13,025 nucleotides of DNA from Halobacteriales archaeon SW_9_67_25 (GTDB taxonomy: Archaea; Halobacteriota; Halobacteria; Halobacteriales; Haloarculaceae): the NCBI GenBank assembly GCA_003022745.1, contig PXSU01000121.1:1652-14676 (forward strand), in the 5' to 3' direction. Below are positions 113 through 9,428 of this stretch, one piece after another. Position numbers and translations under genes: made by a program. The number at the start of each line of letters is the position of its first letter. Position 1 is the first letter of the stretch. A model generated the notes under the pieces. That model was given only the letters and a program-made list of their open reading frames with translations. It did not search any database and was not told where the DNA came from.

Positions 113-1132
113 ATGGACCACCTGCTCGTGCGCGCCGCCCGCGGGGAGCGGACGGAGCGACCGCCAGTCTGGCTGATGCGCCAGGCCGGCAGACACATCC
201 CCGAGTACCGCGACCTCCGCGAGGAGTACTCCTTTCTGGAGGCGATCAAAACGCCGAAGATCGCCGAGGAAATAAGCCTGCTGCCCTGGGAGTACTACCG
301 CCCCGACGGGGTGGTGATGTTCTCGGACATCCTCACCGTGCTCGAACCGCTGGGCTTTTCCTACCACATCGAGAGCGGCGTCGGCCCGGTCGTCGAGAAC
401 CCCGTCGAGGGGCCCGCCGACTGTGACCGCTCGCACGACGACGTCGCGCGCGAACTCGACTACGTTGGCGACCTCCTGGTGCGCCTGAACGACCGCGTGG
501 GCGAGGAGACCGCGGTCATCGGGTTCGCCGGGGGACCCTTCACCCTCGCTTCGTACGCCGCGGCCGGTGGCCCCTCGCGGACGAACATGCCACTCCGGCA
601 ACTCCGGGCGCGCGACCCCGAGGCGTTCCGGACGCTGCTGTCGTCGTTTGCGGACGTCGTCACGGACTACCTGGAGTTCCAGATCGGCAACGGCGCGGAC
701 GTCGTGCAACTGTTCGACACCTACGCCGGCACCCTCACCCCCGAGGACTACCGGGAGTTCGTCCTGCCCTTGCACCGCGAGATCCTGGCTGACCTGCGCG
801 CGCCCTCCATCGTCTTCGTCCGGCGGATGGGTGGGCGCCTCGACCTGCTCGCGGAGAGTGGCGCCGACGTCGTCGGCCTCGACTGGACGGTCGGGATCGG
901 GGAGGCCCGCGAGCGCCTCGGGGACCGACCGGTCCAGGGGAACCTGGACCCCTCGTACCTCTTTGGCGACCCGGAGTTCGTCCGTGCGCGGACCCGCGAG
1001 GTCATCGAGGCCGCCGGTCCCGAGGGGCACATCCTCAACCTCGGCCACGGGGTCAACAAGGACACGCCCGTCGAGAGCGTCCGGGCGTTCGTCGAGACCG
1101 CGAAGTCGGTCGACCGCGACCGGGAGCGGTAG
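113..1132 (+). CDS. hemE: Uroporphyrinogen decarboxylase (UroD/HemE)
   Basis: Cytoplasmic enzyme that removes the four acetate carboxyls of uroporphyrinogen III to give coproporphyrinogen III, the first step committed to heme rather than siroheme. The 339-residue length is normal for the family. Seen in the sequence: the N-terminal signature VWLMRQAGRHIPEY (about residues 19-32, with substrate-binding Arg23 and Arg27), the catalytic-type Asp72 in MFSDIL, the second signature GFAGGPFTLASY, QGNLDP, and the C-terminal LNLGHGV with His312. These argue for a true UroD rather than a corrinoid methyltransferase paralogue. Phe replaces the usual Trp in the GxPWT motif, a mild change. A TATA-like box about 28 bases upstream and the ATG right before the conserved N-terminus support the start. 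The gene is followed 49 bases later by a histidine kinase and faces hemG-hemH, which encode later heme steps. Confidence 0.95.
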   Translation: MDHLLVRAARGERTERPPVWLMRQAGRHIPEYRDLREEYSFLEAIKTPKIAEEISLLPWEYYRPDGVVMFSDILTVLEPLGFSYHIESGVGPVVENPVEGPADCDRSHDDVARELDYVGDLLVRLNDRVGEETAVIGFAGGPFTLASYAAAGGPSRTNMPLRQLRARDPEAFRTLLSSFADVVTDYLEFQIGNGADVVQLFDTYAGTLTPEDYREFVLPLHREILADLRAPSIVFVRRMGGRLDLLAESGADVVGLDWTVGIGEARERLGDRPVQGNLDPSYLFGDPEFVRARTREVIEAAGPEGHILNLGHGVNKDTPVESVRAFVETAKSVDRDRER

Positions 1133-1181
1133 GGGGAACACCTATGCCGTTCGGGGAACGAATGTCCGCCAGTACAGCCCC

Positions 1182-3273
1182 ATGAGCGAGGACACAGGGA
1201 TCGAGGACCCGGACGGCATCCACGTGTTACACGTCGACGACGAGCCCGGATTCGGGGACCTCGCAGCCGAGTACCTCGAACGCGAGGACGACCGGCTGAC
1301 AGTCGAGACGGCGACCAGCGCAGAGGACGCCGACGACGTTCTCGGCGACCGTCGCGTCGACTGTGTCATCTCCGACTACGACATGCCGGGGATGTCCGGC
1401 ATCGAGTTTCTCGAACACGTCCGGGCGGAGTATCCCGACCTCCCCTTCATCCTCTTTACGGGCAAGGGCAGCGAGGAGGTCGCCAGCGAGGCCATCTCGG
1501 CGGGCGTGACCGACTACCTCCAGAAGGAGGGAACGAGCGACCAGTACGCGGTCCTGGCCAACCGCGTGCGAAACGCCGTCAAGGGGTACCGCGCCGAGCG
1601 GGAGGCCGAACGGACACGGACGCGTCTGGCGGCGATCACCGAGAACTCGACGGAGGCCATCCTCACGGTCGACGAGGAGGTGGTCGTCAGGTTCGCCAAC
1701 CCCGCCGTCGCGGACATCTTCGGGCACGACCCCGACGACGTGGTGGGACAGTCGCTGACGATGCTGGTCCCCGAACGCCTCCGCGAGGACTACAGCGCGG
1801 GCTTTCGCCGGTACCTGGAGACCGACGAAGGGGACCTCGACTGGTCGTCGACGGAGTTTACCGGGCGCCACGCCGACGGCCACGAAGTCCCGCTGTCGGT
1901 GTCGCTGCGCGAGTTCGAGATCGACGGCCAGCGCCGCTTTGCCGCCGTCCTCCGGGACATGACCGACATCGAGGAGTCCCGGCGGCGCCTCCAGACGCTC
2001 ATCAGCAACGTTCCCGGCGCCGTCTACCGATGTCGCAACGAACCGGGCTGGCCCATGGAGCAGGTCGAGGGCGGGTGCGAGTCGCTGACGGGCTATCCCG
2101 CCGAGGGCCTCGAATCCGGCGCGGTCGCCTGGGGCGAGGACGTCCTCCACCCCGAGGACAGAGAGCGGATGTGGGACGCCGTTCAGGAGGCCCTCGAGAC
2201 CGGGGACCCCTTCGAGGTCACCCACCGCATCGTGACCGCCGACGGCGAGACGCGATGGATGTGGGAGCGTGGCCGGGCCGTCGACACCGACGACGGGGCG
2301 ACGGTCCTGGAGGGGTTCATCACGGACATCACCGAGCGGGAGGAGCGGGAACGGGCACTGGCCTACGAACGCGACAGGCTGGCGGCCGTCTTCGACGCCG
2401 TCCCGCATCCGATCACCGAGGTCGAGTTCCGGGACGACGAGCCACGGGTCACGCAGGTCAACGACGCCTTCGAGGAGGTGTTTGGCTACCCCGAGCAGCG
2501 CGTGGCCGGGGAATCACTCGACGACTTCATCGTCCCCGAGGAACACCGCGCGGAGGCAAAGGAACTGAACGAGTCCGCCCGCAGCCGTCCGACGGTCCAG
2601 CGGGAGGTCGAGCGCGTCACGGCCGACGGCGAGCGCCGAACCTTTCTGTTTCGCTCCTCGCGGGTCTCCGAGGAACACGAGACCCACTGGCTCGGCACGT
2701 ACATCGACGTCACCGAGCGCACCGAGCGCGAACGGGAACTGAAGCGCCAGAACGAGCGCCTCGACCAGTTCGCCTCGGTCGTCTCCCACGACCTCCGGAA
2801 CCCCCTGAACGTCGCCTCGGCGCGCCTCGAACTCGCCGGCGACGAGTGTGACAGCCCCCACCTCGCGGACATCGCGGACGCCCACCGGCGCATGGAGGAA
2901 CTCATCGACGACCTCCTGACGTTCGCCCGTGTCGGCACCCAGGCGATCGATCCGGGCAGCGTCGACCTCCGCCGTCTCACGGAGGAGTGCTGGGAGACCC
3001 TCGGGGACGGCGACGCCACGCTCGTCGTCGAGACCGACCGGATGGTCCGGGCCGACCGCGACCGCCTCAAACAACTCCTCGAGAACCTCGTCTCGAACGT
3101 CATGGACCACGGCGGCGCGGATGTGACCGTCCGGGTCGGCGACCTCGGGGATGGCTTCTACGTCGCGGACGACGGGCCCGGAATCCCCGCCGACCGCCGC
3201 GAGGACGTCTTCGAGCCGGGGTACTCGGAGCGGCGGCGCGCGCTTCGAGGTCACTGGCGTCGAGACCGCGTAG
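1182..3273 (+). pseudogene. REC-PAS-PAS-PAS histidine kinase, 3' end broken by deletion and frameshift
   Basis: Hybrid sensor kinase, apparently soluble (no membrane segment seen). Receiver domain, residues about 13-135: acidic pair Asp19-Asp20, phosphoacceptor Asp65 in SDYDMPGMSG, Thr93 and Lys115. Three PAS domains follow (about 147-270, 272-395, 398-520), then a HisKA domain with His536 in VVSHDLRNP, then an HATPase domain with an N-box (ENLVSNVMDHG), the G1 box DDGPGIP (about 663-669) and an F-box-like FEPGYS ending at residue 682 (base 3227). The reading frame then changes. The expected end of such a kinase, GGARFEVTGVETA and a TAG stop, is present in the +1 frame at 3232-3273. The roughly 30 residues between, which should carry the G2 box (GTGFGL) of the ATP lid, are missing. 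Reading on without a shift, the frame stays open to 4067, antisense to hemG, giving 961 residues. The ATG at 1182 is the start just before the receiver domain. The lesion probably abolishes ATP binding; an assembly error is the alternative. Confidence 0.8.
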
Positions 3274-3374
3274 CGACCGCGTCTGGATCGGGACACACCA
3301 GAGTATCGCCGAGAAGTGCGGCACAGCGGATGTTCACTCCCGATGAGAATGGATCGACGGGCACCGCCTCGTCT

Positions 3375-4649
3375 TCACCGACCAGTTTTCGCAATCGACT
3401 CGGCCACCTCCCGCGCTTCACGCACGCGACTCGGGATACCCATCCGCCCGGTGTAGTTCGTCGCCACGTGGACGCCCGGCGGCGTCTCGAAGCCCGCCAG
3501 CGCGTCCCAGGTGCGGTCCCAGGCGGGGAACCACCGCTCGCGCGTGGCGACGTGCAGCACCTCGGCCCCGGAGTCCATCACCGCCTCGAACTCCTCGCGG
3601 GCGATCTCGCCGATTGCGGCGCGGTCGCGCCCGACCATCTCCGGGTCGTGCATGCCGCCGAGAAAGGCGGTGTAGAGGCCGTCGCGGCCGAACATGCTGG
3701 CGTTCCAGGAGACACCCAGGGTGTGCAACTCCTCGCCGAAAGCGACCTGGTAGCCGAAACCGTCGGGCCGGCAGTCGGCGGTGAGGTGGACCATCGCCAG
3801 GGGGTTGTAGGTCAGGCCGGCGAGCCCGTCCACGCCGGTCGCAACGCCGTCGAGCAACTCGGCAGTCACGTCCGCGGGCGTCGTGACGACGACGTGGTCG
3901 ACGGCGTGGGTCCCGCCGCCGGTCTCGACGAGGTATCGACCCCTGTCTTCCGACTCGGCTCGCCGGACGTCGGTCACCGGCGTGCCGAGTTCGACCCGGT
4001 CGGTGTGGGCCTCGCAGAGCGCCCGGGGCAGTTGCTGGTTTCCCTTCTCGAAGGAGATCGGGGGTGACTGCTGGCCCTGGCCGACGCGCTTTCCGAACGC
4101 GAGCAGGAAACTCCCGGCCGCGCGTTCGCGTTCGAGCAACGATTCGAGGGCGTACGCGGCGGGCATAGCTGCGGGGTCCGAGCCGTAGATGCCCCCGTAG
4201 AGGGGGCCGATGAAGCGCTCGTAGGCCTCGCGGCCGAACTTCCGGGTGAACAGCTCCGCGGCGGACTCCTGCGGGTAGCCCCGCCGGGTCAGCGGCTCGG
4301 CCAGCAGGCGGAGTTTCCCCGGCCACGAGAGCAGGTCCGTCCGCAGGAACGCCGCCACGTCGAGGGGTGCCTCGCGCAGGCGGCCGTCGGCGTAGACGTA
4401 CAGCGGCGCTTCCGCGGCCTCGATGGTCGCGTCGTCGAGCCCGACGGCCTCGACCAAGTCGCCGAGGCCCGGCGTCAGGCGCAGTCGCTGGGGGCCGATC
4501 TCGACGACGCGACCCTCGACGGTGCGGGACTGGATGACGCCACCGGGCTGGTCGGCCGCCTCGAAGGTCGTGGCGTCGACGCCACGCTCTGCGAGGAACT
4601 GCGTCGCTGCGAGGCCAGTGATACCCCCGCCGACGACCGCGCACTCCAC
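3375..4649 (-). CDS. hemG: Protoporphyrinogen/coproporphyrinogen oxidase (HemG/HemY type)
   Basis: FAD-dependent, oxygen-using oxidase of the HemY (PgoX/CgoX) family. It removes six electrons from protoporphyrinogen IX or coproporphyrinogen III; sequence alone does not decide which substrate. Seen: an N-terminal Rossmann dinucleotide motif VVGGGITGLAA directly at the start, then FEAADQPGG, then VVEIGPQRL (second FAD contact), and a C-terminal FAD segment NYTGRMGIPSRVREA. I prefer the GTG start at 4649, giving 424 residues. It lies one base after the hemH stop (TGA-C-GTG), has a GAGG about 9 bases upstream, and places the FAD motif at the very N-terminus as in the family. An in-frame ATG at 4712 would add 21 residues that overlap the hemH tail and resemble no known domain. 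The gene is probably co-transcribed with hemH and translationally coupled to it. Its stop lies about 100 bases from the natural stop of the converging kinase gene. Confidence 0.9.
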   Translation of the reverse strand: MECAVVGGGITGLAATQFLAERGVDATTFEAADQPGGVIQSRTVEGRVVEIGPQRLRLTPGLGDLVEAVGLDDATIEAAEAPLYVYADGRLREAPLDVAAFLRTDLLSWPGKLRLLAEPLTRRGYPQESAAELFTRKFGREAYERFIGPLYGGIYGSDPAAMPAAYALESLLERERAAGSFLLAFGKRVGQGQQSPPISFEKGNQQLPRALCEAHTDRVELGTPVTDVRRAESEDRGRYLVETGGGTHAVDHVVVTTPADVTAELLDGVATGVDGLAGLTYNPLAMVHLTADCRPDGFGYQVAFGEELHTLGVSWNASMFGRDGLYTAFLGGMHDPEMVGRDRAAIGEIAREEFEAVMDSGAEVLHVATRERWFPAWDRTWDALAGFETPPGVHVATNYTGRMGIPSRVREAREVAESIAKTGR

Positions 4650-4650
4650 G

Positions 4651-5826
4651 TCAGTCGTCCTCGGCACGGGCAGTGTCCGCGTCTCCACGGCCGTCGGCGC
4701 GTGCGTCGGCACCGGTCCCGTCGTCAGTCCCCACGTCCGTCTCCGCCTCGGCCTGGTGGGCCGCAGCGGCGTCGTCGGTCGCCGTCTGTGGCGCGTTCAG
4801 ACACATCGTCCCCGGGACGTCCCGGCACTGGCACTGGCGGTACTGGTAGTACCCGGGATCGAAATCAGCCAGGAAGGGCTCGACGAGGTCCGCGAATATC
4901 CCGGGAATCCGCTCGTCGTCGTGGGGGATGGGGACCCGGTAGAAGTCCAGCCTGGCCGCCTCGGCCGCTTCGGCGAGTTCGTCGTCGAGTTCGGAGAGGG
5001 TCTCGCTCTGTTCGTGGAGGAAACTGACGGGCTCGACCACGACGCGCTCGGCATCGACAGTCCCGATCAGGTCCTCGATTTCGGGTTCCGTCCAGGGTAT
5101 GTCGCGGTTCTCGTGGTTCTGGAAGCCGATGTGGTAGTCCCCGACGCCCAGCAGGGAGGCCACGACCGAGCAGAACTCCTCGACGTAGATGTCGTACCGG
5201 CTCCCCTCTTCGAGGTAGTGCTGTGGCGTGCCGTGGGCGGAGAAGACGAGCGCGGTGTCCGGGTCCTGGAGGTCGACGCCGGACTCGGCGGCGAAGGTAT
5301 CGATGTTCTCGGCGCGGACGCGGTTGTACCCCGGGTGCTTGTGCCAGCCGGTGATGGCCTGGAAGGGGACGTCCAGGCCGGCCTCGGCCATGGCCGACTC
5401 CAGTTCGTCAAGAGAGATGACGTTCGTCGAGGGGCCACACAGCGGATAGACGGGGAATCCCACGACGCGGTCCACGCCGTCGGCCCTGGCGGCTTCGACG
5501 GCGTCCTCGATGAAGGGTTCGGTGTACTGCATGCCGAGGTAGGTGGTGGCGTCGAAGCCCCGCGCTTGCAGGCGCTCTTCGAGGGCCTCGGCCTGCCTGG
5601 TCGCCTGTTCGTTCAGCGGCGAGCCGCCGATTTCTTCGTACTCCTCGATCAGGCCGGGTGCGCGCCGTTTCGCGAGCTTGCGGGAGCGCTCGCGGGCGGC
5701 CTGTTCGGAGTCGTACTCCTCGAGGTCGGCGTTGGCGAAGAAGATGCGTTCGAGGTAGTCGACGACCGCCTCGCGGTCGGGTTCGGACGGTTCCCCAAAG
5801 TTCAGAACGACGACGCCTGTGCTCAT
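4651..5826 (-). CDS. hemH: Ferrochelatase (HemH/CpfC), probable [2Fe-2S] type
   Basis: Inserts Fe2+ into protoporphyrin IX or coproporphyrin III. 391 residues. The ATG at 5826 is followed at once by the family N-terminus GVVVLNFGEP. Active-site motifs are present: FSAHGTP with His198, and EPVSFLHEQSETL with His271 and Glu275, matching the conserved His and Glu of the family. Cys130 lies in YPLCGPSTN, a segment that aligns by eye with the region of human ferrochelatase containing cluster ligand Cys196. The C-terminal QCQCRDVPGTMC gives Cys332, Cys334 and Cys342. Four such cysteines are what [2Fe-2S] ferrochelatases have, so a cluster is likely (inference). The last 45 or so residues, after the cysteines, are an Ala/Asp/Gly-rich, probably disordered acidic tail. 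A TATA-like box lies at 5851-5856. The stop is one base from the proposed hemG start, indicating a two-gene operon. Confidence 0.93.
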   Translation of the reverse strand: MSTGVVVLNFGEPSEPDREAVVDYLERIFFANADLEEYDSEQAARERSRKLAKRRAPGLIEEYEEIGGSPLNEQATRQAEALEERLQARGFDATTYLGMQYTEPFIEDAVEAARADGVDRVVGFPVYPLCGPSTNVISLDELESAMAEAGLDVPFQAITGWHKHPGYNRVRAENIDTFAAESGVDLQDPDTALVFSAHGTPQHYLEEGSRYDIYVEEFCSVVASLLGVGDYHIGFQNHENRDIPWTEPEIEDLIGTVDAERVVVEPVSFLHEQSETLSELDDELAEAAEAARLDFYRVPIPHDDERIPGIFADLVEPFLADFDPGYYQYRQCQCRDVPGTMCLNAPQTATDDAAAAHQAEAETDVGTDDGTGADARADGRGDADTARAEDD

Positions 5827-5848
5827 GTGCGGGGGTTGGACTGTACCG

Positions 5849-5866
5849 GGGTATACCTGTCGTTTG
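5849..5866 (-). promoter_or_regulatory. hemH-hemG operon promoter
   Basis: On the minus strand the order is CAAACGACAG (BRE-like purine/A-rich) then GTATAC (5851-5856), centred about 27 bases upstream of the hemH ATG at 5826. This fits a haloarchaeal leaderless promoter. The core lies inside an 8-base palindrome, GGTATACC. Confidence 0.55.
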
Positions 5867-5906
5867 CGTGGACAGCGGCTGGGTTCGGTCCCGGCCCGGC
5901 GTGTCG

Positions 5907-6274
5907 CTACACGTCCCGGACGACGAACACCGGACGGGAGACCCTGTCGACGACCCGTCCAGTCGTGGGCCGAATATTCGCTCCCGCAACGAGGGTTCTG
6001 ACTCCCCGAGCACGAGTACGTCGTACTCCTCGGCGGCCGCGACGATGGCGTCGCTCGGGCTGTCCCCCTGCTCCAGCCGCCAGGCGACGCGGTCGCGGTC
6101 GACGCCGTCCTCTTCGAGGCGGTCACAGACGCCCCTGAGCAGCATCTCGTCACGGGAGGCCTCGTCCCCGGAGTCGGCGACGTTGAACAGCGTGACCTCG
6201 GCGTCACCCGCCCGCGCTCGGTCGTCGAGCGCCTCCTCGGGCGGTAAGGGGTCTCCCCGGGGGACGACCGGATT
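5907..6274 (-). pseudogene. Universal stress protein (UspA family) remnant
   Basis: A minus-strand reading frame encodes a recognisable UspA-type fold of about 118 residues: VVP near the N-terminus, then AEVTLFNV, a Glu/Asp-rich helix, SDAIVAAAEEYDVLVLGESEP, then RERIFGP. UspA proteins normally continue G-x(9)-G-S/T-x-x-x-V-x-x...P-V-x-V-V. Here the matching VVDRVSRPVFVVRDV and its stop (TAG at 5909-5907) are in another frame, so a frameshift lies near 5963-5968. No ATG, GTG or TTG occurs in frame upstream before the neighbouring ATPase promoter; the last similar residue is near 6274. The gene therefore lacks both a start and a continuous 3' end. It may have been a stand-alone stress protein or the C-terminal domain of a transporter. 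This remnant fills most of the 520-base gap between hemH and the ATPase gene. Confidence 0.65.
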
Positions 6275-6310
6275 CCCTGGGCTCGCTGTCGGTCGGGCGT
6301 CTGACGGAGA

Positions 6311-6320
6311 GTTATGTGTC
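6311..6320 (+). promoter_or_regulatory. Weak TATA-like box for the HerA-like ATPase gene
   Basis: gttatgtg at 6311-6318 is the only AT-rich stretch close upstream. It is about 33 bases from the ATG at 6348 and only about 15 from the in-frame ATG at 6330. This favours 6348 as the start. The match to a haloarchaeal TATA box is poor. Confidence 0.3.
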
Positions 6321-6347
6321 GCGGAACAGATGGTTCCCCCAACGAGT

Positions 6348-9300
6348 ATGGTCGAAACCGAGCGCATCACGGTCGCCGAAGTCAGCGAGGGGCCGCCCGA
6401 GTCAGGTGGCGACGGCGACCCCGGCGAGGCGGTGTCGCTTCCAGTTGTAGAATTACTGACTGGTCGAGGGTTCATTACGGGGAAATCGGGCGCCGGAAAG
6501 AGCATCCTCGAAGGAACACCGGTGTATACTGATTCCGGCCGCAAACCGATAGAGAACGTCGAGCGGGGCGAAAAGGTCCTCTCGCTGAACAAACACACGT
6601 ACGAGCAGGAATTCCGTGCGGTACAGGCGACGATAGAGCACACTGACGACCGACTCCTCCGAGTCACGCTCGAAGACGGTACCGGACTCGTTGGCACCGA
6701 AGACCACAGCTTCCTGACCGCGGACGGACTCGAAATCGTTCCGGTTCGGGGCGATGAACTCGAAGAAGGGATGTGGATGCCCATGGCACGATCCCTCCCG
6801 AGCACGGAGGAAACGCGGGAGATCGATCTCGGCGAGTACGTCGGTGAGGCCAACAACGTTATTATTGAGGGCGACACTATCAGGAGCGGACCGCGAACAG
6901 AAGACCGGACGCTGACCCTGGATTTCGAAACGGGCAAAGAGATCGGGCTGTGTCTGGCCGAAGGGTCCTTCGACAACAACGACACGCTGCAGATCGCCAA
7001 TATCGCTGACGGCGTCCACACCTTTCTCGAAAAACGTGGCTACAACGTCTACGAGAAGACGTGCAACAAGGGGTTCCAGCCGTATGCCCGCTTTCTCCAA
7101 TCGGAGTTCGGAAGCGGATCCGCCGGGAAGCGACTCCCTGGATGGGTGTTCGACGCGCCGGAGCCGTTCCGTGCCGGATTGCTCTCGGGATACTTTGACG
7201 GCGACGGAACCGTCGGCGAGGCCGACGTCACGGCGATAACGAAATCGGAGACACTGCTCGATGGACTCCGGGAACTGCTCAGACAATTTGGCGTCTCGAC
7301 GACAGTTCGGGAGAAGTTCACGTTCTACGACGGCGACAAGCGGCGGTACCAGCGCCTCACGGTCGACTCCTTCGCAATCGACCGATTTGCGGAGGTCGTC
7401 GACCTCAGTGTGTCAGCAAAGGCAGACCGCCTCGAAAATCTCCGCGAGGACCTCGAAAAGGGAGAGCAGTACAACTCGAAGGACATGATCCCGAGCTTCG
7501 GGCCCGTTCTCAACGCCGCAGCCAGGGAGGCGGGCTGGACCGCCAGGGAGAGCGAGCGACGAGACGACAGCGCCTCCGTCCACCATCTCACTCGCCAGCA
7601 GAAGGCGGGCCGTGACACCTACCAGCGACTGGTCGAGGAACTCGACATCGGCGGCCGCGCGAAGGCGTACGGGGAATCGGACATTCAGTGGAAACGGGTC
7701 GTCTCCGTCGAATCCCTGGACGAACAGCGCCGGGTATACGATCTCGATGTCGAACTCAACGACAATTTCATCGCGAACGGTGTGTTTGTCCACAACTCGA
7801 ACACGGCGAGCGTCTTTGTCGAAAAATTACTCGACAACGGCTTCGGGCTGTTGATCGTCGACATCGACGGCGAGTACTACGGCCTGAAGGAGGCGTACGA
7901 GATCCTCCACGCCGGCGCCGACGAGGAGTGTGACGTCCAGGTGACCGAAGACCACGCCGAGAAACTGGCGACGCTGGCCCTGGAAAAGAACGTGCCGATC
8001 ATCCTCGACGTCTCCTCGTTCCTCGACGAGGACGAGGCCGAGGCGGTACTGACGGCGGTAGCGCGACACCTCTTCGCGAAGGCGAAGAAACAGAAACAGC
8101 CGTTCCTGGTGCTCGTCGAGGAGGTCCACGAGTACATCCCCGAGAACGGGTCGGTCGGGGAGTGTGGGAAGATGCTCATCAAGATCGGCAAGCGGGGGCG
8201 CAAACACGGGCTGGGTATCGTGGGCATCAGCCAGCGGCCGGCCGACGTCAAGAAGGACTTCATCACGCAGTGTGACTGGCTGGTCTGGCACCGGCTGACC
8301 TGGGACAACGACACGAACGTCGTCCGGCGGGTGCTCGACGCCGAGTACGCCCGGGCCGTCGAGGACCTGGCGGACGGCGAGGGCTTTCTCATGACTGACT
8401 GGTCGGCGTCGGTCCGGCGGGTGCAGTTCCAGCGCAAGCGGACCTTCGACGCCGGCGCGACGCCCGGGCTGGACGACTTCAAGCGACCCGATCTGAAATC
8501 GGTCAGCGACGACCTCGTCTCCGAACTGGCCGAAATCAGCGAACAGCGCGCGAGCAGGGAGAGCGAGATCGCCGAACTCAAGGCGGAACTCGACCGCAAG
8601 AACTCCCGCATCGCGGAACTCGAACGCGAACTGAAGGATGCCCGCGACCTCCAGCGCATGGCCGACCAGTTCGTCGACGCCCTACTCGGCCACGTCGAGG
8701 GTGCTGCCCCGGGTCGCACCGAGCGCGAACGGGCACGGGGCGGGCACCGGCCCGACGACCGGGGAGACGCGTCCGAGACCCGGACAGGGGCGTCCGGCAT
8801 CCCGGCGACCGGGACGAGCGCCAACGGGGACGCGACGGCGACGACCGGCGAGGCGCCGACCTGGGAGTTCAGCGCCGCGGACGTCCTCGACCGGCTGGAA
8901 TCAGTCGAGGCCGATGCCGTCGCGGATGCGATGTCCGAGACTGTCGCGGACGACCGCGCGGGCGACAACGCGGAGGCCGCACACGCCGGGAACGGAACCG
9001 GGGCGGCCGATGAGAGGGAAGACATCGTCGAGGCCGACGGGGACGACACCGAGTACGGCATCCTGGGCGAGGCCGGCGAGGCAGACATCATCGAGGAGCC
9101 CATCGCGGTGCGGGAACTCAAAGCCGAGATAGCGGGACTGGAGACGACTACGCGGGGCATGCTGGCAGTCTACCGCGAACGGGGGCCGATGACCCCGCCC
9201 GAGGCACACGTCGCCGCGGGCGGCGACGGCGACCGGACGGCGGCCTACGCACACAACAGACAGCTCCGGACGCGGGGGCTGATCGAACACGCCGGGCGCG

Positions 9301-9428
9301 GCCACTACGACTACCGGCTCCGCGAGTTGCTCGAAGAGACCTTCGACGGGCACGCCGACGGCGAGCAGGTCGAGGCCTACGCCCGGAGCGCGGAACAGCA
9401 CGCGCTGACCCCCGACCTCGGGGAGTAG
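6348..9428 (+). CDS. HerA/DUF87-type ATPase, interrupted by an intein
   Basis: Precursor of 1026 residues; 594 after removal of the intein (residues 52-483). The spliced protein has a Walker A motif GKSGAGKS at 45-52 (precursor numbering, with Ser484 taking the place of Ser52), then LLIVDIDGEYY (about 501-511), the Walker B strand FLVLVEEVHEY (586-596, acidic Glu591-Glu592) and a sensor-like SQRPADV (628-634). This order is that of HerA/FtsK-family DNA-translocating ATPases of the DUF87 group. Unlike canonical HerA, there is no room for the N-terminal HAS beta-barrel: the P-loop begins at residue 45. A strongly heptad-like coiled coil (about 718-778) follows the ATPase core, then an acidic low-complexity linker (about 785-915), then a probable winged helix (about 920-1000; TPPEAHVAA and LIEHAGRGHYDYRL). 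No nurA gene is beside it. Its role is unknown; DNA pumping, chromosome handling or repair are guesses. ATG 6348 is preferred over 6330 because of promoter spacing. Confidence 0.85.
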   Translation: MVETERITVAEVSEGPPESGGDGDPGEAVSLPVVELLTGRGFITGKSGAGKSILEGTPVYTDSGRKPIENVERGEKVLSLNKHTYEQEFRAVQATIEHTDDRLLRVTLEDGTGLVGTEDHSFLTADGLEIVPVRGDELEEGMWMPMARSLPSTEETREIDLGEYVGEANNVIIEGDTIRSGPRTEDRTLTLDFETGKEIGLCLAEGSFDNNDTLQIANIADGVHTFLEKRGYNVYEKTCNKGFQPYARFLQSEFGSGSAGKRLPGWVFDAPEPFRAGLLSGYFDGDGTVGEADVTAITKSETLLDGLRELLRQFGVSTTVREKFTFYDGDKRRYQRLTVDSFAIDRFAEVVDLSVSAKADRLENLREDLEKGEQYNSKDMIPSFGPVLNAAAREAGWTARESERRDDSASVHHLTRQQKAGRDTYQRLVEELDIGGRAKAYGESDIQWKRVVSVESLDEQRRVYDLDVELNDNFIANGVFVHNSNTASVFVEKLLDNGFGLLIVDIDGEYYGLKEAYEILHAGADEECDVQVTEDHAEKLATLALEKNVPIILDVSSFLDEDEAEAVLTAVARHLFAKAKKQKQPFLVLVEEVHEYIPENGSVGECGKMLIKIGKRGRKHGLGIVGISQRPADVKKDFITQCDWLVWHRLTWDNDTNVVRRVLDAEYARAVEDLADGEGFLMTDWSASVRRVQFQRKRTFDAGATPGLDDFKRPDLKSVSDDLVSELAEISEQRASRESEIAELKAELDRKNSRIAELERELKDARDLQRMADQFVDALLGHVEGAAPGRTERERARGGHRPDDRGDASETRTGASGIPATGTSANGDATATTGEAPTWEFSAADVLDRLESVEADAVADAMSETVADDRAGDNAEAAHAGNGTGAADEREDIVEADGDDTEYGILGEAGEADIIEEPIAVRELKAEIAGLETTTRGMLAVYRERGPMTPPEAHVAAGGDGDRTAAYAHNRQLRTRGLIEHAGRGHYDYRLRELLEETFDGHADGEQVEAYARSAEQHALTPDLGE
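6501..7796 (+). mobile_element. Intein with LAGLIDADG homing endonuclease in Walker A
   Basis: 432 residues, inserted in frame between Lys51 and the Ser that completes GAGKS. Block A starts with Ser1 (SILEGTPVYT, then KPIENVERGEKVLSLN). Block B has T66-x-x-H69 in GTEDHSFLT. The endonuclease blocks are IGLCLAEGS with acidic Glu154, and LLSGYFDGDG with acidic Asp235; both catalytic acids are present, so nuclease activity is plausible. Block F is RRVYDLDVE, and block G NFIANGVFVHN ends in His431-Asn432, followed by extein Ser+1. All residues needed for class 1 splicing with Ser1 and Ser+1 nucleophiles are intact. Removal rejoins GKSGAGK to SNTASV, an uninterrupted P-loop. The intein looks less GC-rich by eye than the flanking exteins. 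The empty target would read ggaaag then a serine codon and aacacg. Confidence 0.95.

Follow-up and report, generated by a model that had tools for sequence, protein, structure and literature searches.

We analysed a 13,025-nucleotide stretch of DNA from Halobacteriales archaeon SW_9_67_25 (the whole stretch is referred to below as the window) in which the gene for a HerA-like ATPase is interrupted by an intein between the lysine and the serine of its Walker A motif. The element is very probably a homing intein that goes through the usual cycle of such elements, here at a P-loop, and a selfish element without a function for its host is the simplest account of it. Positions, motifs and domains are collected in Table 1.

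Anatomy of the intein and its insertion site

The host gene lies inside an open frame at 5658-9428 in the open reading frame (ORF) listing of the window, and its start was set at ATG 6348 by homology with relatives that have homologous starts. The intein corresponds to residues 52-483 of the precursor and comprises exactly 432 codons, from the Ser1 codon at 6501 to the end of the Asn432 codon at 7796. Its first serine directly follows GKSGAGK, and its last residues, HN, are followed by SNTASVF. Removing the intein in silico restores the Walker A sequence GAGKS, joins the flanks as GKSGAGK-SNTASVFVEKLL, and yields a predicted mature host of 594 residues, in agreement with the figure of about 594 given by an earlier reading of this DNA from its letters alone (the sequence-only reading). 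The intein is lower in GC than the joined extein (60.0% versus 67.8%), also at third codon positions (GC3 0.745 versus 0.869).

Profile searches recognise the inserted stretch. Pfam reports Intein_splicing (E 3.9e-24, intein residues 13-432) and LAGLIDADG_3 (E 1.8e-14, intein residues 223-299), the latter as one LAGLIDADG unit only. The NCBIfam models detect both intein ends, with the N-terminal end just below cut-off (23.9 versus 24.5 bits). The translation holds the class 1 set of Ser1, T66-x-x-H69, His431, Asn432 and Ser+1, which is complete in 53 of the 53 parsed inteins described below, these having been selected by their ends. Two LAGLIDADG motifs with their acids are also present; the putative acids are E154 and D235, placed in the motif column that we take, from PI-SceI, to hold the endonuclease acid. 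The splicing residues and the presence of both acids had been noted in the sequence-only reading, and all are found. Structure comparison of predicted models shows the intein and its host as separate folds.

Relatives were collected by two protein searches, the first of them covering approximately 5.8 billion proteins, which scored 7997 and 7992 candidates. The first contributed the best 120 of 1382 matches and the second, scored on the intein alone, contributed 97. The 163 proteins examined (162 matches and the window's own) include 118 that could be parsed, 53 occupied and 65 empty; the remaining 45 are single-junction pieces, or other proteins from the second search. Parsing relied on a front pattern, GKSGxxx[SCT], and a back pattern, FVHN[SCT]N, a rule that odd junctions would escape. 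GKSGxGKSN is uninterrupted in the 65 empty proteins, whose sequences join exactly at the junctions, and in 69 DNA loci. Because 53 proteins hold an intein at exactly the same position and 65 hold the empty site, chance is excluded and, judged from sequence, the stretch is an intein at the exact Walker A position; the junction codons and the empty homologues uphold the earlier placement precisely between GAGK and S. The sequence-only reading had also named the alternative that the stretch belongs to the normal ATPase fold and is no intein. We found no point in its favour, and it is vanishingly improbable: the 65 empty homologues rule it out, and the separate folds and the intein Pfam domains also speak against it.

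From this anatomy we infer an ordinary cycle of splicing and homing. The intein would be translated within the ATPase precursor which, by analogy with other P-loop inteins, would be unable to bind nucleotide. Self-excision would take the class 1 route, with an acyl shift at Ser1 aided by T66 and H69, branching through Ser+1, and cyclisation of Asn432 aided by H431, and would restore GAGKS in the HerA-like ATPase. The LAGLIDADG endonuclease would cleave alleles without an intein, at the P-loop codons or close to them, and mending of the break would copy the intein, plus some flanking DNA, into the cut allele. Splicing requires Ser+1, and the P-loop uses the same serine; this double role would explain both the tolerance of an insertion here and the cost of losing it imprecisely.

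Distribution, mobility and retention

The comparison with haloarchaeal genomes that had been proposed together with that of intein-free homologues reveals a near-universal host gene (366 of 391 Halobacteria genomes) and a rare, patchy intein (detected in 8 of 391). The intein went undetected in 358 of the 366 host-bearing genomes, in searches that strongly diverged mini-inteins could escape. Six genomes have a long intein (G000, G316, G184, G310, G035 and G354, the G310 copy being broken), and two have a mini-intein (G360 and G318, the two species sampled from a single genus). Seven carriers and G382 (33% identity) were recovered with the full-length query, and G318 was found with the intein-ends query; G382 was rejected as a carrier because its match is an rpolA'' intein. 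In the intein-ends search, the eight carriers have best E values of 8.7e-30 or lower, and all other genomes 1.3e-19 or higher. Named carriers include Halapricum desulfuricans, Halegenticoccus soli, Halobacterium noricense, Halalkaliarchaeum sp. AArc-CO and uncultured J07HX64, with Halobacterium sp. CBA1126 and six QS/QH assemblies as further carriers. Some of the proteins are already annotated in database records as intein or homing endonuclease.

Individual copies show irregularities. The broken gene (L013, G310:C22, apparently the same as the named locus L051) is disrupted near the C-terminal end of the intein, with its N- and C-parts in different frames and a stop between them; this is either genuine decay or, the genome being incomplete, a fault of assembly. 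P0037, from Halobacterium noricense, matches L012 over 977 compared residues except for two adjacent ones: the Walker A Gly-Lys beside the intein reads Gln-His, either a dead P-loop or a sequence error. More intein-like matches lie outside the HerA-like gene on contigs C110, C124, C152 and C167 of G000, the assembly to which the window belongs.

Trees of hosts and inteins, both quick searches, point to movement of the intein. On the host tree, which includes 40 of the 65 empty hosts, the distribution requires a minimum of eight presence changes, three of them forced by well-supported branches, and the window's close relatives are split between occupied and empty. The intein tree conflicts with the host tree at supported places. 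The intein of P0041, one of nine divergent, shorter hosts, groups with those of P0036/P0037 of Halobacterium type (support 100), whereas its host groups with P0048 (98). Inteins of the short hosts P0044, P0045, P0047 and P0049 group with P0023/P0024 (99); the tree program flagged long branches for several of the short hosts. The short divergent hosts are probably paralogues, since a P0045 query gives two or three host-like genes in 12 of 116 genomes, and the tree conflict suggests that the intein moved into such hosts as well. Across the 1128 pairs formed by 48 of the 53 inteins (longer than 400 residues, with hosts longer than 400, and including both the window's and its near-copy P0001), intein and host identity are weakly correlated (r 0.34), and the intein is more similar than the host in 371. 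The inteins of P0018 and P0031 have 99.1% identity, and their hosts agree throughout residues 1-208 and then diverge sharply, which may reflect a long conversion tract, recombination or chimeric assembly.

Patchiness, tree conflict and differences in the host sequence beside the insertion would all be indirect signs of homing. Of the 65 empty proteins, 63 have Ser at position x of GKSGxGKS, whereas 26 of the 53 occupied proteins have Ala or Gly there (Fisher p 2e-10, kinship ignored). The codons GGA-AAG are used more often directly 5' of the site when it is occupied, GGA occurring in 6 of 11 occupied versus 4 of 69 empty loci (p 2.5e-4, kinship uncorrected; 29 of the empty loci are best matches to the window host and 40 were hand-picked among the matches listed). 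Compared with its nearest empty relative, P0040, the window host differs at 5 of 19 residues near the site and at 9 of 238 farther off (p 0.0017); P0002 and P0042 show the same five changes, the two cases being close kin and not independent. Either co-conversion accompanying homing or the displacement of an occupied allele by one without the intein would produce such differences, which may alternatively reflect co-adaptation of residues beside the splice site.

Several results weigh against homing. Only 17 of 52 occupied rows (P0001 excluded) had an empty relative within 15%, and in three of these pairs (P0004, P0005 and P0013) there is no difference near the site. The pooled excess is weak, at 42 of 323 near versus 372 of 4046 far (ratio 1.41, p 0.03, pairs non-independent); the comparison ratio is 1.06 in 64 empty-empty pairs. 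The 24 bp at the site rank 206 of 366 for conservation among such segments of the surrounding 390 bases, profiled in the 48 of 69 empty loci with the full stretch present, and the idea that the site was chosen as the most conserved DNA around is thus not supported. No vehicle was found: 27 stretches of viral contigs fit a pattern, none of them confirmed (one scan of eight), and in the phage and plasmid collections 2 phage records and 1 plasmid record matched, at 22-27% identity.

The state of the endonuclease varies across the family. Both acids are retained in 40 of 49 full-length inteins, including the window's; nine are without one or both, and four mini-inteins of 163-189 residues have no homing endonuclease. 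In the L011/L012 pair, nonsynonymous (dN) and synonymous (dS) divergence is 0.036 and 0.30 in the endonuclease part and 0.018 and 0.24 in the host part, which suggests purifying selection on both. This is the single pair close enough for a sound estimate; dN/dS of distant pairs looks saturated and was not used. The nine copies with missing acids, together with the lone LAGLIDADG unit that Pfam sees in the window copy, would fit a decaying intein that splices, no longer cuts, and is now inherited vertically. We consider this unlikely for the window copy, which keeps both acids and the common length of 432 residues, and whose close relatives are divided into occupied and empty.

Slightly less likely still is retention as a post-translational switch, in which splicing awaits a signal (salt, temperature, redox or DNA) and then turns the ATPase on. 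Conditional splicing is described for the P-loop inteins of Pyrococcus horikoshii RadA (PMC5790916) and Mycobacterium smegmatis DnaB (PMC6195587). Mini-inteins also persist, in four parsed proteins and in both sampled species of one genus, but lag alone can keep them. The switch is further opposed by the many host-bearing genomes in which no intein was detected and by a review reporting that the Haloferax volcanii polB intein, in another host, was lost without a growth defect. The window intein has two cysteines, C151 and C188, both of them in its endonuclease half; C151 is shared by 3 of the 49 full-length inteins, the window's and that of its near-copy P0001 included. A redox switch via an active-site cysteine is not supported, the splice junctions being without cysteine. 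The salt, redox or temperature switch proposed in the sequence-only reading thus gained no positive evidence beyond the position of the intein. We think it similarly doubtful, at about the level of decay, that a P-loop intein lineage has specialised on Halobacteria HerA-like ATPases, moving between orthologues and divergent, probably paralogous hosts, and has been retained, where the endonuclease was lost, to restrain a DNA motor after translation.

Homing is our preferred explanation. The family forms a natural series at one Walker A site, with empty, active-looking, acid-lacking and mini states. It adds a near-core gene to the haloarchaeal intein hosts of which we are aware, with related inteins also in clearly divergent hosts. 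Homing range, co-conversion and regulation of hosts by P-loop inteins become testable, partly in cultured haloarchaea.

Host protein and neighbouring genes

The earlier assignment of the host to HerA/DUF87 holds for the ATPase core, which is of the DUF87/HerA type, but not for membership of the curated HerA families. The intein-free relatives P0117 and P0040 score 38-53 bits against cut-offs of 800-970 (NF040819, NF042943, NF042944 and NF040937), and the unspliced window protein scores 30-49 bits. HerA, a DNA end-resection translocase, is defined by an N-terminal HAS barrel. The window protein appears to lack this domain, with only 51 residues, and so little room, before the intein, and structural alignments begin at model residues 2-7 versus residue 110-157 of the listed HerA-type chains. 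A host-only model has a mean pLDDT of 58, too poor for use; its best fold match is a HerA chain (E 2e-4). The gene for NurA, the partner of HerA, is often a neighbour of the HerA gene. A NurA-family gene above the Pfam cut-off is present in the same assembly on another contig of 8446 bases (G000:C139:4492-5412), and by-eye inspection of the ORFs of at least 150 amino acids on that contig recognised no HerA-like frame. The NurA-family search also gives matches in Haloferax volcanii, from which a review describes HerA and NurA as absent.

Table 1. Parts of the interrupted ATPase gene, in window coordinates.
Feature	Position	Strand	Evidence
N-extein: residues 1-51 of the HerA-like ATPase, through GAGK of Walker A	6348..6500	+	Translation, alignment to relatives
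Walker A codons GAGK; the motif Ser is at 7797-7799, beyond the intein	6489..6500	+	Translation
Class 1 intein with homing endonuclease, 432 residues	6501..7796	+	Translation, profiles, structure comparison, intein alignment
Block B, TEDH (T66, H69)	6696..6707	+	T66 and H69 in 53/53 parsed inteins
First LAGLIDADG-type motif, GKEIGLCLAEGS, putative acid E154	6933..6968	+	E in 41/49 full-length inteins
Second LAGLIDADG-type motif, LLSGYFDGDG, putative acid D235	7179..7208	+	D in 41/49 full-length inteins
C-terminal splicing region, ending FVHN (H431, N432)	7728..7796	+	TIGR01443 intein_Cterm, 29.6 bits (cut-off 15.6)
C-extein: Ser+1, remaining ATPase core, long helix, acidic linker, C-terminal winged-helix-like domain, stop	7797..9428	+	
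Predicted long helix after the ATPase core (putative coiled coil)	8508..8687	+	Helix 721-780 of the precursor model
Putative C-terminal winged-helix-like domain	9102..9344	+	Precursor model, high pLDDT here; the host model gives weak matches of MarR/ArsR type (E 0.02 or worse)

Elsewhere in the window, a response-regulator/PAS/histidine-kinase gene occupies 1191-3240. After GYSE near 3220, the usual continuation into the kinase ATP-binding domain was not recognised by eye in the three forward frames, and the gene may be truncated or disrupted; the Pfam query was cut at 3230. Adjoining genes within 113-5550 likely belong to the haem pathway and encode uroporphyrinogen decarboxylase, a flavin amine-oxidoreductase family protein (presumably protoporphyrinogen oxidase, judging from its neighbours) and ferrochelatase.

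Comparison with known inteins

The P-loop position is of an already known kind, and the HerA-like host appears unreported in the literature searched. The preference of inteins for P-loops, as claimed in the sequence-only reading, is stated in a review (PMC5874633) and illustrated by the MCM-a, VMA-b, RadA and DnaB inteins. The claim that such a host is not commonly reported likewise agrees with the literature, within its limits: the words HerA and DUF87 do not occur in the accessible text of a 2014 survey of 118 haloarchaeal genomes (PMC4071816), and no report of a HerA-like intein host appears in titles or abstract starts among the matches listed, a scope with most subscription journals outside it. 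The survey gives one allele in an 'ATP-dependent helicase' (helicase-b) of one halobacterial genome, with relatives in Bacillus and a nanoarchaeon; compared by name only, this allele may be linked to the intein of HerA-like hosts.

The profile scores give a mixed picture of a possible origin by a jump from another P-loop. Ranked by whole-protein score, P0122 (an MCM) and P0129 (a UvrD-type helicase) come first among proteins with other hosts. Their P-loops are interrupted, but each apparently holds two inteins, as do P0131 and P0134 (both PF00437, type II secretion ATPase). The best single-domain match outside the HerA-like hosts is instead a haloarchaeal rpolA'' intein (L015 of G382, 180.8 bits), which differs in sitting in RNA polymerase A'' before TMNTFHYAG, where there is no P-loop, and has about 24-33% identity. 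The best family match of the window intein is NCBIfam PRK14898, below its cut-off. The MCM intein of P0122, with its junction between HN and SQLLKYI, scores 143.6 bits against the profile of HerA-like-host inteins, with a best local identity of 26%.

In position, the haloarchaeal MCM-a (cdc21-a) intein is alike. It interrupts a hexameric DNA motor of the same archaeal class just behind the Walker A lysine, which is also the position of VMA-b (PMC10643990); its host, MCM, is different. The archaeal VMA-b inteins (TliVMA, PhoVMA) share the P-loop position but have 17% identity over the structural alignment and an ATP synthase subunit as host. In M. smegmatis DnaBi1, the P-loop serine likewise doubles for Mg2+ coordination and splicing (PMC6195587), although DnaBi1 is a class 3 mini-intein and the present intein is of class 1 with an endonuclease. 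The P. horikoshii RadA intein is also inserted in a P-loop, and differs in being a mini-intein of a recombinase for which conditional splicing has been demonstrated (PMC5790916).
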